6,656 nucleotides of DNA, taken from contig JADFOP010000065.1 in NCBI GenBank assembly GCA_022562795.1, forward strand, positions 1-6,656, read 5' to 3'. The notes under the pieces are model-generated. The model was not told where the DNA came from, did not search any database, and saw nothing but the letters and a program-made list of their open reading frames with translations. Shown here piece by piece: positions 1-6,265 of the stretch. Position numbers and translations under genes: made by a program. Source of the stretch: Nitrospinota bacterium. GTDB taxonomy: Bacteria > JADFOP01. Each line of letters starts with the position of its first letter. Within the stretch, counting starts at the first letter, position 1.

Positions 1-450
1 TTGTTGAGGCTCTTGGCCACATGGGGGTGATCTGACCCCAGGGTCTTTTCAAGAATTGCCAGCGCCCTTTTGTAAAGGGGCTCGGCCTCGGCGTACCGGC
101 CCTGGGCCTTATAGAGCCCCGCCAGGTTGTTCAGGCTTGTGGCCACATCGGGATGGTCCGGCCCCAGGGCCTTCTCCAAAATCGCCAGGGCCCGCTGGTA
201 GAGGGGCTCGGCCTCGGCGTACCGGCCCTGGGCCTCATAGAGCCCCGCCAGGTTGTTCAGGATCACGGCCACAGCTGGATGGTCGGGCCCCAGAGCCTTC
301 TCATAAATTTCCAACGAACGCTTAAAGAGAGGCTCGGCATCGCCGTAAAGGCCCTGAGCGTTGTAGAGCATTGCAAGGCGGTTCAGGCTCAGGGCAACGC
401 CCTGATGGTCGGGGCCAAAGGTGTGCTCGGCGACCTTCAGAGCCTCTTTG
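1..450 (-). repeat. Tandem 126-bp DNA repeats encoding TPR units
   Basis: The TPR-coding stretch is built of 126-bp direct repeats in phase with the 42-residue protein repeat. Copies starting at 77 and 203 are nearly identical over their first 59 bases (77-135 and 203-261), with one difference (t/c). The copy from about 329 is clearly more diverged, and another copy continues across the left edge. The gradient suggests recent unit duplication within the array. Confidence 0.85.
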
Positions 451-623
451 GCAAGAGGAATGGCCTCACGGTATTTCCCTTGTTGATATAACGCTTCGAC
501 CTGATCGTAGAGCGCCTGCCAGCGCGCCTCTTGCGCCAACGCGATGGAGCCAAAGGACAATCCCAAGACCACTATCAATGGAATGGTCATGACACTTGAC
601 ATCCGTCGCCTGTTTTGACTCAT
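1..623 (-). CDS. Secreted tetratricopeptide-repeat protein (kinesin-light-chain type), C-terminus beyond window
   Basis: Translating the minus strand from ATG at 623 gives 207 codons without a stop up to the window edge, so only the N-terminal part is present. Residues 1-30 form a signal peptide: basic start (NRRR), hydrophobic core (IPLIVVLGLSF) and an ALA|QE cleavage site. The mature part consists of 42-residue TPR units, each with a G-x-D-H motif (residues 70, 112, 154, 196) and an LNNLAGLY helix followed by Q-G-x-Y-x-E/D-A-E-P-L. This is the TPR_10/TPR_12 type, a protein-interaction scaffold, here probably periplasmic or surface-exposed. No catalytic domain is visible in the part present. 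The start is uncertain: in-frame GTG at 638 and ATG codons at residues 8 and 12 are alternatives, and the AGCAGG ahead of 623 is a weak ribosome site. It lies 176 bases downstream of the MetE-like gene on the same strand, so it may be a separate transcription unit. Family confidence is high; specific function is unknown. Confidence 0.9.
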   Translation of the reverse strand, partial: MSQNRRRMSSVMTIPLIVVLGLSFGSIALAQEARWQALYDQVEALYQQGKYREAIPLAKEALKVAEHTFGPDHQGVALSLNRLAMLYNAQGLYGDAEPLFKRSLEIYEKALGPDHPAVAVILNNLAGLYEAQGRYAEAEPLYQRALAILEKALGPDHPDVATSLNNLAGLYKAQGRYAEAEPLYKRALAILEKTLGSDHPHVAKSLN

Positions 624-744
624 GGCGAACCTGCTCACATCGTTACTCCAGCCATCAAAGGGTCGAGGCCTTTCCAATCCCTCAAGCCGCCCTACTCCTC
701 TTGAGCCGGAAATAGACGGGACTGGAAATATGTAATTTCTCAAC

Positions 745-758
745 ACGACCGAGGTCGT
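745..758. promoter_or_regulatory. Perfect 6-bp dyad (ACGACC-GA-GGTCGT) in the gap upstream of the TPR gene
   Basis: The 176-bp gap between the MetE-like stop and the TPR start contains ACGACC (745-750) and its exact complement GGTCGT (753-758), separated by two bases. There is no T-run on either side, so it does not look like an intrinsic terminator. It could be an operator for the TPR gene or a chance dyad. I see no convincing promoter hexamers in this gap. Confidence 0.25.
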
Positions 759-799: not shown

Positions 800-1909
800 T
801 CAGCCCCAGACCGCCCGGGCGGCCTCGACGACCCGCTTGAGCTTCCGCTTCTCGTCTTCGACCGAGATGAGATTGCCGACGATAGAAGTGGAGAACCCGC
901 ACTGGGGGCTCAGCGCCAGGCGCTCGAGAGGTATGAGTCGGCTGGCTTCTTTAATCCGGCCCGTCAGCTCTTCGAGCGGCTCCAGACGCGGCCTCTTCGT
1001 GCTGACCAATCCTAACACGACCGTTTTGTCTTCGGGAACGTCCCTCAACGGCTCAAAGGAGCCCGAGCGCTCATCATCGTACTCGAGCAAGAGCCGCTGG
1101 GCGCGTATCTTCCGGAAGATCGGTTTTGCAATCGAGTCGTAACCGCCTTCGGCCAGCCAGCGGCTCTCCTGGTTTCCGCGACAGATGTGAAATCCAAACG
1201 AAACCCCCGGGAATTGACCCATCACGGCGTTGTCCATCTCGATCCCCCGGCTGAGCCATTTGTCCAGGCTCCAGCCCTGCTCCTCGTAAAAGGCCCTCGT
1301 TTTGGGGTCGAGCAACAAAGCGTAGTGGGGCGCGTCGAGCTGGATGTAGGTCGCGCCCAGGCGAACTAACTCCGCAACTTCATCTCGCAGAATATCGACA
1401 ATATCGGCCAGGAAGCCCTCCAGCGTCGGATACGCCGAGGCGGAGCGCTCCGGCGACCAAAAGTTCACCCACATGCTCGGGCTCGGAAGCGTAATTTTTG
1501 GCGTTCGGGTCGTGCGGGCCCTCAAATATGTGAACTCCTCGGCCGAGAGGTGGCGCTTGCGGACGAGCTTCCCGACGACCCCCAGCGACGTCGGCCGATC
1601 TTTGCTCCAATCCCCCACGCTCTCATCGCCGCGCCACTCCCCCCACAAGAAGGCGTCTATATCGTACTCGCCGAAGCCGTCAACGGCCGCCGCCATCTGG
1701 CTCTGGAAGGACAACCGACGCATCTCGCCGTCGGTGACCACTTCGAGACCGGCCTCTTCCTGAAGCGCGATGGCCTCGTCAACCGCCCGGTCCTCGATTG
1801 CTTTAAACTCCGCCCGGCTCATCCGGCCCGCGCCCAACTCCTCTCGGGCCTTGAGAAGCTCCGGCGGGCGAAGCAGGCTTCCAACGACATCAGCGCGGGC
1901 CGAAATCAT
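800..1909 (-). CDS. MetE-core-like (cobalamin-independent methionine synthase II family) zinc methyltransferase
   Basis: This 369-residue protein belongs to the UROD/MetE-like superfamily and matches only the C-terminal, catalytic barrel of MetE (about half the usual 750 residues). The zinc-ligand set is complete: H241-x-C243 (FHICRGN), E276 (LLEYDDE) and C337 (SPQCGFS). QLDAP at 190-194 corresponds to the MetE QIDEP strand that contacts the amino-acid substrate. GSLLRP at 10-15 and TDGEM at 59-63 are typical of this short family. Members transfer a methyl or other alkyl group to a zinc-activated thiol; known relatives include core methionine synthases using methylcobalamin or another donor, and alkane-epoxide coenzyme M transferases. 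The donor and acceptor here cannot be read from sequence. It is cytoplasmic (no signal peptide). The ATG at 1909 follows a strong GGAGG site four bases upstream. It is the last gene of a same-strand series, 76 bases after the transporter permease, so it may be co-transcribed. Confidence 0.88.
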   Translation of the reverse strand: MISARADVVGSLLRPPELLKAREELGAGRMSRAEFKAIEDRAVDEAIALQEEAGLEVVTDGEMRRLSFQSQMAAAVDGFGEYDIDAFLWGEWRGDESVGDWSKDRPTSLGVVGKLVRKRHLSAEEFTYLRARTTRTPKITLPSPSMWVNFWSPERSASAYPTLEGFLADIVDILRDEVAELVRLGATYIQLDAPHYALLLDPKTRAFYEEQGWSLDKWLSRGIEMDNAVMGQFPGVSFGFHICRGNQESRWLAEGGYDSIAKPIFRKIRAQRLLLEYDDERSGSFEPLRDVPEDKTVVLGLVSTKRPRLEPLEELTGRIKEASRLIPLERLALSPQCGFSTSIVGNLISVEDEKRKLKRVVEAARAVWG

Positions 1910-1913
1910 ATTT

Positions 1914-1918
1914 CCTCC
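1914..1918 (-). promoter_or_regulatory. Ribosome binding site of the MetE-like gene
   Basis: On the minus strand GGAGG is followed by AAAT and then ATG at 1909. It is a full anti-16S match and fixes this start. Confidence 0.75.
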
Positions 1919-1985
1919 ATCAACAATACCGACGATGGACCTTCTCTCCCCTTCATGTGCGTGTCCGGCAACGTGCTCGGCTGTA

Positions 1986-3605
1986 TCACACCTCCGGCGT
2001 GACGGACCGCTGCAAGAGTGAGAATGCGCCGTCTATAACCAGCGCCAGCAGCGCCGCGAGCACGGCCCCCGTCAGGACCTCGGTCATGTTTTGGACCGAA
2101 AGCCCCGCCAGAATCGGTGTGCCGAGGCCGCCGGCGCCGATAAACGCAGCGAGCACCGCTGTGCCGACCGTGATGACCGCGGCGGTGCGAATTCCCGCCA
2201 GAATGACGGGGAGAGCGAGCGGCATTGTGACGTAACGCAACCGCTGCCACCCTGTCATACCCATCCCCTTGGCAGCGTCGAGCACGGGGGGGTCGACGTC
2301 CTCTATCCCCTGCTTCGTATTACGAATGATCGGCAGCAGCGCATAGAGGAACAACGCGGTGACCGCCTCGTTCCATCCGCCGCTGCTGGAGCCGGCGAAG
2401 AGCGGAATCATAAACACCAGAAGAGCAAGGCTCGGAATTGTTTGCAAGATGCCCGCGCCACCGATAGTCACCGCAGCAATTGCTCGGTTGCGAATTGCCA
2501 GCAAACCGAGCGGCACGCCAACCATTATGGCAAACGCCAAGGCGGTAAGCGTCATCGCCAAGTGCTCTCCAGTATACCGGGCCAGCTTGTATCGGTCGGC
2601 GGAAACCATCTCAAAGAAGCTCATCTCCCTGCGGCTTCGGAACCTTGAGGGAGCGGCAGTCCCTTTAGATACAGTGGCTTGTGTCGCCGGCGCAACAAAA
2701 CCGCGGTCCAGGAAATCGCGGACGACCTCTTCGACCGAACGACCCGCAACTTCGACCGCGTAATTGAGCCTGCGCATCGTCTCGTCATCGAAGCGGCCGG
2801 AAATCCGCCCAATCACGCCAAGCAGGGCGGCATCGTTGGCGACCTTCGGCCCATAGAGATACGAGGCGTCATAGGGCGGCCAGAAATTCCGGTCATCCTT
2901 GAGCACGACCATGTCGTAGAGGGCGATGAGCCCCTCGGTTGAGTAGACATCGATGACATCCGCCTCGTCGTTCTTGAAGAGCTCATAGGCGAGGCCGTGT
3001 TCGACGCCGCGTGGCGCCCCACCCAAACCGTAGGCCGCCCTAAGGCCATCCCATCCGTCGTCGCGGCCGAGAAACTCGTGCGTGACCGCAAAGCGAACGC
3101 CCACTCCCGTCGCATGAAGCCTGACCAGGTCGCTTATGGTGGAAACGTTGTGCTCGCGGGCTATGGCGCCGCGCAACCCGAGCGCATAGGTGTTGTTGAA
3201 ACCGAGCGGCGGCCCCCAGTAGAGGCCATGTTCCTCTAGCATTCCCCGCTCGACGGCCAGGCGCACCCCGGCCGAAGTGCGCTTCTTAGGCCCACGCTTG
3301 AGCGAAAGCAATGCCGTGCCGGTGTATTCAGGATAAATATCGATTTTGCCGGCTTTCAGCGATTCAAAAAGAATCGCCGTATTTCCCATGTTCATCTTGC
3401 GGATGACCGTTCGTCCCAGGTCGCGCTCAACTAATTGGGCTAAGACCTCGGCAAGGACCACTGACTCCGGAAATTTCTTGGCGGCCACAACGAGAGGGCG
3501 CTCGCGGCCGGCCTCCTGCGCTCGGATGGCCCGGCCGGGCGAGAATGCCAACGCAAAACCGAGCAACGCAGAGAGTACCGCCAAGGGTCGACGACGGTCA
3601 CGCAC
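1986..3605 (-). CDS. Osmoprotectant/quaternary-amine ABC transporter: substrate-binding domain fused to permease
   Basis: From GTG at 3605 the protein has 539 residues. Residues 1-29 resemble a signal peptide (DRRRP then LAVLSALLGFALAF, cleavage near RA|QE). Residues about 37-305 are an OpuAC/OpuCC-type binding domain for trimethylammonium compounds, with hallmark motifs IYPEYTGT (90-97), FNNTYALGL (136-144), VIDVYSTEG (217-225) and DDRNFWPPYDA (237-247); the tyrosines in these motifs are candidates for the aromatic cation cage. Residues about 348-531 are an OpuCB/ProW-type permease with several hydrophobic helices and an EAA coupling loop at about 443-462 (DAAKGMGMTGW). The domain order, binding domain first, is the reverse of the usual permease-first fusion. 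It pairs with the adjacent ATPase. Substrate class (betaine-like) is well supported; glycine betaine, choline, carnitine, hercynine and ergothioneine are all possible. An alternative ATG at 3626 overlaps the ATPase stop codon and would add seven residues. Confidence 0.92.
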   Translation of the reverse strand: MRDRRRPLAVLSALLGFALAFSPGRAIRAQEAGRERPLVVAAKKFPESVVLAEVLAQLVERDLGRTVIRKMNMGNTAILFESLKAGKIDIYPEYTGTALLSLKRGPKKRTSAGVRLAVERGMLEEHGLYWGPPLGFNNTYALGLRGAIAREHNVSTISDLVRLHATGVGVRFAVTHEFLGRDDGWDGLRAAYGLGGAPRGVEHGLAYELFKNDEADVIDVYSTEGLIALYDMVVLKDDRNFWPPYDASYLYGPKVANDAALLGVIGRISGRFDDETMRRLNYAVEVAGRSVEEVVRDFLDRGFVAPATQATVSKGTAAPSRFRSRREMSFFEMVSADRYKLARYTGEHLAMTLTALAFAIMVGVPLGLLAIRNRAIAAVTIGGAGILQTIPSLALLVFMIPLFAGSSSGGWNEAVTALFLYALLPIIRNTKQGIEDVDPPVLDAAKGMGMTGWQRLRYVTMPLALPVILAGIRTAAVITVGTAVLAAFIGAGGLGTPILAGLSVQNMTEVLTGAVLAALLALVIDGAFSLLQRSVTPEV

Positions 3606-3612
3606 CTTCGCA

Positions 3613-3622
3613 CACCTCCTTC
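3613..3622 (-). promoter_or_regulatory. Strong ribosome binding site deciding the GTG start of the fused transporter
   Basis: The minus strand reads GAAGGAGGTG, an essentially perfect Shine-Dalgarno, ending seven bases before GTG at 3605. It lies inside the seven extra codons that would be translated from ATG at 3626. This favours GTG, although the ATGA overlap at 3623-3626 could also allow coupled initiation at the ATG. Confidence 0.7.
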
Positions 3623-4363
3623 TCATTCGAGCGAAACGTGAAGCACGCTTCTAAGGAACGCTTCCACCCACGGGTCGGCGGGGTTTGCACGAAGGTCCCC
3701 GGGTGTAGCGACCTGGACGATCTTGCCCGCGCGCATCACGGCCACCCTGTCGGCCAGCTCCAGGGCCTCCGCAAGGTCGTGCGTCACAAAGACTGCAGTC
3801 GTCTGCTCGCCGGCTAGGAGCGATTTCAGCAGGGTGTGCATCTCCGCGCGCGTCAGCGGGTCCAGGGCGCCGAAGGGTTCATCCATAAGCAGGAGGCTGG
3901 GCCGGGCGGCAAGCGCCCTGACGATACCCACTCGCTGACGCTCGCCCCCAGAGAGCCGGGAGGGCATCCGGTCTCCAAAAGTCTCGGGTGGGAGCCCGAC
4001 CGCTTCGAGGAGCTCATCCACGCGCGCCTCCCTGGTCTCCCGTAGCCAGCCGAGGAGCCTCGGCACGGTGGCCACGTTTTGGCGAACCGTCCAATGGGGC
4101 ATCAGTCCAATCTCCTGGATGACGTAGCCGCACGCGCGCCGGTGGGAGATAACGTTGGCATTCCTGAGGTCGATTCCATCAAGCGTGATCGCCCCGGAAT
4201 CGGGCTCCTCAAGGCGGTTGATGCAGCGGAGCGTGGTGGTCTTGCCGCACCCGGACGGCCCGACCAGAGCCATCATCTCGCCCTCCGAGACCGTCAGAGA
4301 CAGACCGTCCAGCGCACCGGGGTGGCCGGGAAAATTCTTTACGAGGTTTTGAAGCTCAAGCAT
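3623..4363 (-). CDS. Quaternary-amine ABC transporter ATP-binding protein (OpuCA/ProV type, no CBS domains)
   Basis: This 246-residue ABC ATPase powers the adjacent transporter at the cytoplasmic face of the inner membrane. All motifs are intact: Walker A GPSGCGKTT (35-43), Q-loop Q83 in VIQEIGLMPHWTV, signature LSGGERQRV (137-145), Walker B LLLMDEP (157-163) with catalytic E162, D-loop GALDP, and H-loop H195 in VTHDLAEA. The QEIGLMPHWTV segment is characteristic of the betaine/choline/osmoprotectant ATPases. The protein stops soon after the ABC domain, so it lacks the C-terminal tandem CBS domains that in OpuA/OpuC-type ATPases (about 380-400 residues) sense ionic strength or nucleotides. 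Its TGA overlaps a possible ATG of the permease fusion (ATGA), indicating one operon and translational coupling. Upstream, a 71-base gap separates it from egtD on the same strand; the ribosome site before ATG 4363 (GAGAAAAGA) is weak. Confidence 0.93.
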   Translation of the reverse strand: MLELQNLVKNFPGHPGALDGLSLTVSEGEMMALVGPSGCGKTTTLRCINRLEEPDSGAITLDGIDLRNANVISHRRACGYVIQEIGLMPHWTVRQNVATVPRLLGWLRETREARVDELLEAVGLPPETFGDRMPSRLSGGERQRVGIVRALAARPSLLLMDEPFGALDPLTRAEMHTLLKSLLAGEQTTAVFVTHDLAEALELADRVAVMRAGKIVQVATPGDLRANPADPWVEAFLRSVLHVSLE

Positions 4364-4434
4364 TCTTTTCTCGGAGCGATACTATGTCAAAAAGCCTCTG
4401 GGTTTGGGAAAAGGGCCCCCTAATAAAGCGGACC

Positions 4435-5448
4435 TCAGGCCGGGGCGAGCAAGTTTAAGGAGAAGTAGCCCCTTTCATCCTGCCAGCTTTGGGATAAATC
4501 AAAGCCGGACTGAGAAGATAGATCGAGAATTTGCTCTCTGCTGTATTTATATGAATTTTCCGTATGAACCATCTCGCCTTGTTCGAATTGGAACGTCTTG
4601 TCCAATTCCTGAATGTGGACTTCCTGGTCACGCTCGCTGCGCAAATACATCTCTATCCGACTCTCATCCGCGTTATAAAAAGCAAGGTGGGAGAAACTTT
4701 TGAGAACAAAATTGCCTCCAAGCTCGCTATTTATTCGCCGAAGAAGGTTCAGGTTGAATTCAGCCGTAACGTTCTTCGAGTCATTATAGGCTGCCTCCAG
4801 TACGGACGCCTCTTTTTGCATATCGGCCCCGATCAACACATAATCACCGCCGCTCAGCTGGCGTCGGATTTCTCGGAGGAAGCCGGTAGCTTCGCTCAGA
4901 GTGAAATTACCGATGTTCGAGCCCAGGAAGAGCACCATCTTTTGCCCCAATATTTTTTCCTGGATTTTCCGAATACCTATTTTATACTCGGCCACGCACG
5001 CCGTTATTTCAAGCTCAGGGTATTGCCGAATAAGCCGTTTGGATACCCCAACGAGCATCGATTCAGCGAGATCGATTGGGAAGTAGTGTAGGGAGCCTTG
5101 CTCAGCGATAATGGCTTCTATGAGAAGACGGGTCTTTTGGGAATTACCGCTTCCCAGCTCGATGAGCCCAAGATTGCCCGTGGAGTAGCCCGCGATTTCA
5201 GGAGCAAACCTTTCTAGAATTGATAGTTCAGTTCGGGTCAGGTAATATTCAGGCAGATTGCAAATTTCCTCAAATAATTTTGAGCCGGCCTCATCGTAAA
5301 AATATTGGCACGGAATCCGCTTGGGATGCGCAGACAGCCCCTCAAGCACTTCCGTGGCAAAGTCGGATGTAGAGCGAGCTGAATGACTAAATTCAACTTT
5401 CAGCCGTGGTGTCAAGGATGAATCGGCTTCTCTCGGTGAGGAGCACAT
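4435..5448 (-). CDS. egtD: L-histidine N-alpha-methyltransferase (EgtD family; hercynine synthesis)
   Basis: This 337-residue SAM-dependent enzyme is of the EgtD/DUF2260 family, which trimethylates histidine to hercynine, the first step of ergothioneine synthesis. The family signature is at 49-74 (YFYDEAGSKLFEEI, then LPEYYLTRTE). The SAM-binding strand and loop are ELGSGNSQKT (97-106), with acidic D126 in PIDLAESML. FLGSNIGNF (174-182), Y221-N-D, and HTENSYK (295-301) carry the histidine-pocket residues. With a constant offset of 15, N181, Y221, E297 and S299 fall on the mycobacterial EgtD residues N166, Y206, E282 and S284, as I recall that numbering, so the active site appears intact. An in-frame TAA lies seven codons ahead of ATG 5448, so this is the longest start, although no good ribosome site precedes it. 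No egtB, egtC or egtE is in the window. The gene is AT-richer than the transporter genes that follow on the same strand. Confidence 0.92.
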   Translation of the reverse strand: MCSSPREADSSLTPRLKVEFSHSARSTSDFATEVLEGLSAHPKRIPCQYFYDEAGSKLFEEICNLPEYYLTRTELSILERFAPEIAGYSTGNLGLIELGSGNSQKTRLLIEAIIAEQGSLHYFPIDLAESMLVGVSKRLIRQYPELEITACVAEYKIGIRKIQEKILGQKMVLFLGSNIGNFTLSEATGFLREIRRQLSGGDYVLIGADMQKEASVLEAAYNDSKNVTAEFNLNLLRRINSELGGNFVLKSFSHLAFYNADESRIEMYLRSERDQEVHIQELDKTFQFEQGEMVHTENSYKYSREQILDLSSQSGFDLSQSWQDERGYFSLNLLAPA

Positions 5449-5749: not shown

Positions 5750-6265
5750 GTGAAGACCAATCGGACATGCACTCGATTGTGGTTTGCATCACTCGTCATT
5801 GTGGCCGTTGGCTTGGTCGGCTGTCAGGCGGCCTCTGCGCCCCCAAAGGAATGGCTGCCTAGGGCCAAGTCGTGGATGACGGCGCCGGCGCCGCCTGTTC
5901 GGGCGCCATCGGGCGTCGCGTTCGGATTCGCGGGAAACGTGCGCAATGTCTTCTTCGAGTTCGACAAGTCACGCCTGACTAGCGATGCCAGGGACACCCT
6001 CGAGGATAATGCCACCTGGCTCCGCGACCATTCGGACATCAAGGTCCGGATCGAGGGCCACGCCGACGAGCGGGGTAGCGTCGAGTACAATCTCGCCCTA
6101 GGCGAGCGGCGGGCCATGAGAGTTCGAAGCTATCTCATCTCATTGGGGATTGATTCCGCACGTATCTTCACCATAAGCTTCGGCGAAGAGAGGCCTGCGG
6201 CGCGAGGTCACAATGAGAGGGCCTGGGCGAAGAATCGCCGGGGCGAGTTTAAGGTCGCCCAATAG
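5750..6265 (+). CDS. pal: Peptidoglycan-associated lipoprotein (Pal/OmpA-C family)
   Basis: The 171-residue protein starts at GTG and carries a lipoprotein signal peptide with lipobox LVGC, so C25 is the expected lipidated residue; Q26 at +2 is compatible with outer-membrane sorting. A proline/alanine-rich linker (about 27-56) leads to an OmpA-like peptidoglycan-binding domain at about 64-169: VFFEFDKSRL (67-76), IEGHADERGSVEYN (101-114), LGERRAMRV (117-125), FGEERP (144-149) and NRRGEF (162-167). These include the conserved D106 and R120/R121 region that contacts diaminopimelate in Pal. It is expected to tether the outer membrane to peptidoglycan and to work with TolB. Neither tolB upstream nor cpoB/ybgF downstream is present, so it is not in the usual tol-pal cluster; it may be the sole Pal or a paralogue. 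It is transcribed divergently from egtD and converges with the small coiled-coil frame. Confidence 0.9.
   Translation: MKTNRTCTRLWFASLVIVAVGLVGCQAASAPPKEWLPRAKSWMTAPAPPVRAPSGVAFGFAGNVRNVFFEFDKSRLTSDARDTLEDNATWLRDHSDIKVRIEGHADERGSVEYNLALGERRAMRVRSYLISLGIDSARIFTISFGEERPAARGHNERAWAKNRRGEFKVAQ

Follow-up and report, generated by a model that had tools for sequence, protein, structure and literature searches.

Why should a gene for the synthesis of hercynine stand in line with those for a betaine-type importer and an enzyme resembling methionine synthase? The question is raised by the 6656-bp stretch of Nitrospinota DNA analyzed here (the window), which is the entire contig C65, one of 84 in a draft genome of 2.15 Mb that is 97% complete. 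At 800-5448 it carries a co-directional run of four minus-strand genes: egtD, the ATPase gene of an ATP-binding cassette (ABC) importer, a gene fusing a substrate-binding domain to a permease, and one for a protein similar to the catalytic part of MetE, termed MetE-like below. The order and spacing given in the initial annotation of this DNA are indeed present, with 71 bp between egtD and the ATPase gene, a 4-bp overlap between the ATPase and fusion genes, and 76 bp between the fusion and MetE-like genes. That annotation had proposed a combined module for hercynine or ergothioneine, but it missed the link to selenium: senA and senB lie on another contig of the same genome, and the MetE-like protein belongs to a predicted selenoprotein family with selenocysteine (Sec) and Cys forms. 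From the evidence below, a module tied to selenium and hercynine metabolism very probably exists, and the cluster in the window would be one half of it.

The identity of EgtD is secure, as had been claimed: its TIGR03438 score of 374 bits exceeds the equivalog cut-off of 291, which is also passed by the EgtD proteins of three of the loci discussed below (L013, L125, and L112), and it matches the Mycobacterium smegmatis EgtD structures 4uy5 and 4pim with E about 1e-60. Selenoneine biosynthesis, reportedly described in 2022 with three genes, runs from selenophosphate, made by SelD/SenC, through a selenosugar, made by SenB, to SenA, which couples selenium to hercynine to yield selenoneine. In this sen pathway, in which SenC/SelD and then SenB act before SenA and hercynine is the substrate of SenA (PMC9814287, PMC10891094), EgtD thus takes the place of the hercynine supplier. 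On contig C66 of the window's genome, senA (NF041186, 516 bits, cut-off 420) is directly followed by senB (TIGR04348, 404 bits, cut-off 300). This SenA is the only FGE-sulfatase protein of the genome, and its score led us to reject an identity as EgtB. The selenophosphate synthetase of the pathway is represented by a selD fragment at the end of a contig (C27:1-672; 307 bits), in which the Sec position is occupied by an in-frame TGA. In the only genome of the same genus in the comparison set, egtD, a MetE-like gene (74% identical), senA, and senB are contiguous and in one direction. Judged by these protein families, the end product of the pathway is most likely selenoneine, formed via SenA, SenB, and SelD.

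GTDB contigs were scanned with the MetE-like pair, yielding 44 loci (L numbers; genomes are given G numbers) around which egtD, senA, senB, the ATPase, and the fusion were then placed; this evidence is drawn mostly from draft and metagenome assemblies. Recurrence of the gene set alongside SenA extends over Methylomirabilota, Tectomicrobia, Poribacteria, and Nitrospinota; the combined module that the initial annotation had put forward is thus supported. The arrangement egtD-MetE(Sec)-senA-ATPase-fusion is found in L013, L016, and L123 of Methylomirabilota and in L017 of Tectomicrobia, and L011 shows egtD-MetE-senA at a contig end. The window's own order, egtD-ATPase-fusion-MetE, is kept in two Methylomirabilota genomes: L124 has the same order, and L125 reads senA-egtD-ATPase-fusion-MetE. 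L026 of genome G001 has egtD-MetE-senA-senB, and in L115 senA-senB faces egtD-fusion-ATPase. In Poribacteria (L112, L113, L009, and L012), the genes are split: senA-egtD-ATPase-fusion forms one group, seen in L112 and L113, and MetE(Sec)-selD(Sec)-senB are together elsewhere. Most egtD genes at these loci share 34-47% identity with that of the window, and the grouping has therefore been reassembled or maintained over long times. Among genomes encoding a MetE-like protein, SenA was detected in 17 of the 22 where that protein is a close relative (one of the 17 being a contig-end fragment beside MetE) versus none of the six where it is a distant one (p 0.001). Among Methylomirabilota, SenA scored over its cut-off in 38 of 95 genomes, and two loci (L130 and L134) have egtD-senA-ATPase-fusion without MetE. 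Just upstream of senA in G050 are genes that by appearance encode a PhnD/PhnC/PhnE-like ABC transporter (L148:1648-4461).

The second line of evidence for selenium lies within the MetE-like gene. Twelve close relatives (L008-L013, L015-L018, L022, and L123, from at least six lineages, L016 and L123 being near copies) contain exactly one in-frame stop, always TGA and always at codon 243 in window numbering, which is the Cys of the zinc-binding HxC motif. Their identity to the window protein is 69-79% before the TGA and 66-75% after it. A hairpin begins 14 nucleotides after the TGA, with the sequence CAGCC-GGT-GG(C/T)TG in 11 of the 12 and CAGC-AGGTG-GCTG in L015; this GGU-loop hairpin is present in all 12 Sec genes versus 3 of the 11 close Cys genes (p 0.0003). 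SelB scored over its cut-off in 10 of the 11 Sec genomes tested and was not found in the remaining one (G011), and most Sec genomes also have a Sec-type SelD. Because a single TGA at the zinc Cys is combined with a conserved hairpin and with SelB in the genomes, these relatives are predicted to be selenoproteins in which Sec provides the second zinc ligand of the HxC motif; outside the window's genus, the family is mostly of this predicted form. That the TGA codons are instead pseudogene or sequencing artefacts is very improbable: the carriers are nearly all draft assemblies or metagenome bins, as artefacts would have it, but the stop falls at the same catalytic Cys in every gene and lineage, no sequence decay follows it, the hairpin resembles a selenocysteine insertion sequence, and SelB and Sec-type SelD occur in the same genomes. 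General recoding of TGA, for instance as Trp, was rejected because each gene has just one TGA, always at the zinc Cys. ARAGORN found no tRNA genes near the Sec loci; in G051, a tRNA-Sec (Rfam RF01852) is located at L125:244-334, with senA about 1.3 kb away.

The window gene itself has TGT at codon 243, encoding Cys, and no Sec codon. In the tree, a supported clade made up of 12 Sec and three Cys forms contains the window's Cys form, which, being nested there, is most simply derived from a Sec ancestor. The idea that the change followed a loss of Sec machinery is unsupported, as the window's selD contains its TGA and G001 has SelB together with a Cys form; G001 has a Cys codon, yet it also retains the GGU loop.

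What such an enzyme might do is suggested by its active site. The MetE-like protein consists of the PF01717 catalytic domain without a folate domain. Using the zinc and homocysteine positions of reference MetE (PMC7857596), the zinc residues H241, C/U243, E276, and C337 and the homocysteine residues S11, E62, and D192 are invariant in 36 sequences. An AlphaFold model of the protein (predicted local distance difference test score, pLDDT, 93) has its best fold matches in 1ypx and the MesD structure 3rpd (Z about 35 for each); for most catalytic halves of MetE, Z is 32-34. Because of these residues and fold matches, the protein has, as far as sequence and model can tell, a core-MetE fold whose acceptor site is intact and which lacks a folate domain; the MetE-core assignment made in the initial annotation thus stands. 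All NCBIfam methionine synthase models that matched did so under their cut-offs (MesX was not searched for), and assignment to MesD or to any other of these models failed on score. In two distant genomes, an M20-family peptidase gene is directly upstream of the MetE-like gene (L018:3054-4400 and L019:1980-3440). A further MetE-like gene, 63% identical, is on the Rubrobacter radiotolerans plasmid NZ_CP007516.1 (L151:6968-8113), with ars genes and a gene for a BCCT betaine transporter nearby; being from a named strain, it is a possible source for laboratory work.

The main rival to a general methyl-transfer role is that the MetE-like enzyme acts directly on a selenium or sulfur metabolite, methylating or demethylating selenide, selenoneine, or ergothioneine on zinc (for example, in forming or recovering Se-methylselenoneine), with the importer returning the product. 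Sec at the zinc ligand would fit this role, as would the position of the gene, which adjoins selD(Sec) and senB in Poribacteria and separates egtD from senA in G001 and at four loci. We nevertheless consider it unlikely, as the invariant triad S11/E62/D192 suggests that the acceptor is an amino-acid thiol, use of selenoneine is not known for any family member, and five close relatives come from genomes without detectable SenA.

The importer was the basis of a different proposal in the initial annotation, namely import of ergothioneine or hercynine by a system of the EgtUV type. That the ABC system belongs to the quaternary-amine (betaine) class and to the module was borne out, and the ATPase gene adjoins egtD or senA in related loci; the ATPase itself scores 267 bits with the proV subfamily model, under its cut-off of 327. 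In the fusion, the binding domain (residues 44-307) precedes the permease (residues 370-542), and the closest PDB sequence to the binding domain is EgtUC, with E 1e-42. The window domain retains the aromatic cage and the carboxylate-binding Lys, Thr, and Arg; L125 differs at two cage positions, with F for Y341 and D for Y419. Together with the linkage to egtD in several phyla, these similarities favor an EgtUV-like importer or recycler working beside the biosynthetic enzyme of its ligand. However, the three EgtU specificity residues, G244, F293, and Y337 in Streptococcus pneumoniae, are all changed in the window, to F52, Y101, and F143. The same F/Y/F combination is found in other fusions of the module (the partial L124 has F/Y at the two sites covered) and is described in the EgtU paper as the pattern of the glycine-betaine protein ProX (AfProX; PMC9732360). 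The order of the domains is also reversed, EgtUC being residues 233-506 (i.e., permease and then C-terminal binding domain), and an EgtU protein that was tested showed no hercynine binding; some other proteins of the wider cluster take up ergothioneine, at lower affinity. On the residues at G244 and F293/Y337 and on domain order, membership in EgtU was rejected, and alignment of the binding domain with EgtU and ProX, as the annotation had suggested, put its pocket with ProX. An ergothioneine or hercynine importer is therefore improbable, and from the pocket residues, a small betaine is a likelier ligand than hercynine, ergothioneine, or selenoneine. For the fusion, structure prediction gave a poor model (pLDDT 61), which was set aside.

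The explanation that we prefer, although its chance of being right as a whole is put at a little under one-half, is a module for hercynine and selenoneine biosynthesis in which the MetE-like enzyme and the importer supply or recycle methyl groups. Going by known families, EgtD would trimethylate histidine to hercynine at the expense of three molecules of S-adenosylmethionine (SAM), and SelD/SenC, SenB, and SenA in turn would bring selenium to hercynine to yield selenoneine. Like MetE itself, the MetE-like enzyme would use zinc to activate an amino-acid thiol (homocysteine or its selenium counterpart), and it would methylate the zinc-bound thiol or selenol from a donor other than methyl-folate. 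The importer may bring in the methyl source, or an osmolyte, and the two together would refill the methionine/SAM pool drained by EgtD. Sec would make the zinc site a better, or a more oxidation-resistant, catalyst. Taken alone, the methyl-supply role of the enzyme and importer is held more tentatively still.

Several observations weigh against this explanation. Of the 22 genomes that encode a close MetE-like protein, 5 gave no SenA, and the role of this protein may therefore be wider. SenB over its cut-off was not found in the Methylomirabilota genomes tested, and in the Tectomicrobia genome it reached 106 bits against the cut-off of 300; the genomes of L013, L016, L017, L123, and L125 thus have SenA equivalogs without SenB, and the product in such members may not be selenoneine. 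Other Methylomirabilota (L128, L129, and L135) have SenB beside SenA. In the window's genome, senA-senB and the cluster are on separate contigs (C66 and C65) that cannot be joined from the data, and SelB was not found there; it may be lost in assembly gaps, since selD contains a TGA. The linkage expected in relatives held across phyla and failed in part close by, as the ABC fusion was not found in the one same-genus genome (85% complete). Finally, the guanine-plus-cytosine (GC) content of the window's egtD is 48% versus 61-65% for the other module genes, making the operon a mosaic; this suggests a separate origin of egtD in the window's genus. The same-genus egtD (L007 8735-9739) has a GC content of 52.5%. 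Only three genomes of the window's phylum were in the comparison set, leaving comparison by family, order, class, or phylum kinship uninformative.

The missing fusion and the differing GC content of egtD would also be expected if a general core methionine synthase and a transporter for osmoprotectants were near egtD by chance, and the ProX-like pocket and the occurrence of core-MetE relatives far from sen genes agree with such unrelated neighbors. Chance is nonetheless a poor explanation, and an improbable one: the linkage of egtD, ABC genes, and MetE exceeds it because it recurs in other phyla, the set being found in at least four of them and in several orders despite the divergence of egtD, and the window's exact order is kept in two distant genomes.

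The features of the window are collected in Table 1. A Pal-like lipoprotein gene (5750-6265, plus strand) diverges from egtD, and the run of four therefore begins with egtD. The MetE-like gene is followed downstream by a gene for a tetratricopeptide-repeat protein (3-746, minus strand), truncated at the contig end.

Table 1. Genes of the four-gene run and the zinc-ligand codon in the window.
Feature	Position	Strand	Basis
egtD, L-histidine N-alpha-methyltransferase (histidine + 3 SAM -> hercynine)	4435..5448	-	TIGR03438, PF10017, PDB
ABC transporter ATPase, betaine/choline class	3623..4363	-	PF00005; best NCBIfam proV subfamily
Substrate-binding domain + permease fusion, quaternary-amine ABC importer	1986..3626	-	PF04069 (OpuAC) + PF00528 (BPD_transp_1)
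Core-MetE zinc methyltransferase (predicted)	800..1909	-	PF01717, AlphaFold model
Codon TGT, Cys243 of HxC zinc motif; TGA in relatives predicted to encode Sec	1181..1183	-	gene start 1909 minus 3 x 242

No MetE or PF01717 member is among the 119 prokaryotic selenoprotein families inventoried in 2026 (PMC13188914), and no report of Sec in MetE, COG0620, or PF01717, or of Sec tied to selenoneine, was found in the full-text literature searched (subscription papers not covered). The broadest form of our proposal is that an unlisted selenoprotein family, core MetE with a Sec zinc ligand, is the partner of EgtD, SenA/SenB, SelD, and an importer of betaine type in a module for selenium and methyl metabolism spread over many uncultured phyla, and that its zinc-selenolate methyl transfer is a real step of hercynine/selenoneine metabolism; this, too, we regard as somewhat short of an even chance. 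It would add two partners to the sen pathway as told in PMC9814287 and PMC10891094, and these may account for steps missing from it, whether in methyl supply, in uptake, or in product modification. If true, a Sec zinc ligand in a methionine-synthase-type enzyme extends selenocysteine beyond its usual redox roles to zinc-thiol alkyl transfer. Sec and Cys forms are side by side within the same subfamily, and the role of Sec is thus directly testable; wherever TGA is taken for a stop, such genes will be mis-annotated as truncated.

Among known systems, the sen cluster of Variovorax paradoxus (senA, senB, and senC; PMC9814287, PMC10891094) is matched by the SenA and SenB equivalogs of the window's genome and by SelD/SenC with senB in Poribacteria, its hercynine substrate being supplied by EgtD; the module differs in adding egtD, the binding-domain/permease ABC importer, and the Sec/Cys core-MetE, and in that SenB was not detected in its Methylomirabilota and Tectomicrobia members. 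The MesA-MesD core folate-independent methionine synthases (PMC7857596) and the YxjH-like 1ypx share with the MetE-like protein a catalytic MetE domain standing alone and conserved zinc and homocysteine residues, but the window protein is below every NCBIfam equivalog cut-off, most of its nearest clade has Sec for a zinc-ligand Cys, and its gene is linked to egtD and sen genes. EgtU of S. pneumoniae (PMC9732360) has a binding domain of the same subfamily with the same aromatic cage, whereas the window has F, Y, and F for G244, F293, and Y337 and a reversed domain order. Archaeoglobus ProX and other OpuC-type binders of glycine betaine share the four-Tyr cage, with F where EgtU has G244, and a pair of the Y63/F107 type; the window domain differs from them in being fused to a permease and in lying within a hercynine/selenoneine module. 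The methyl-selenium mlp clusters (PMC10418091) likewise link methyltransferases of the UROD/MetE superfamily to selenium genes, but these come from anaerobes, are corrinoid enzymes resembling MtaA rather than core-MetE, and have no tie to hercynine.

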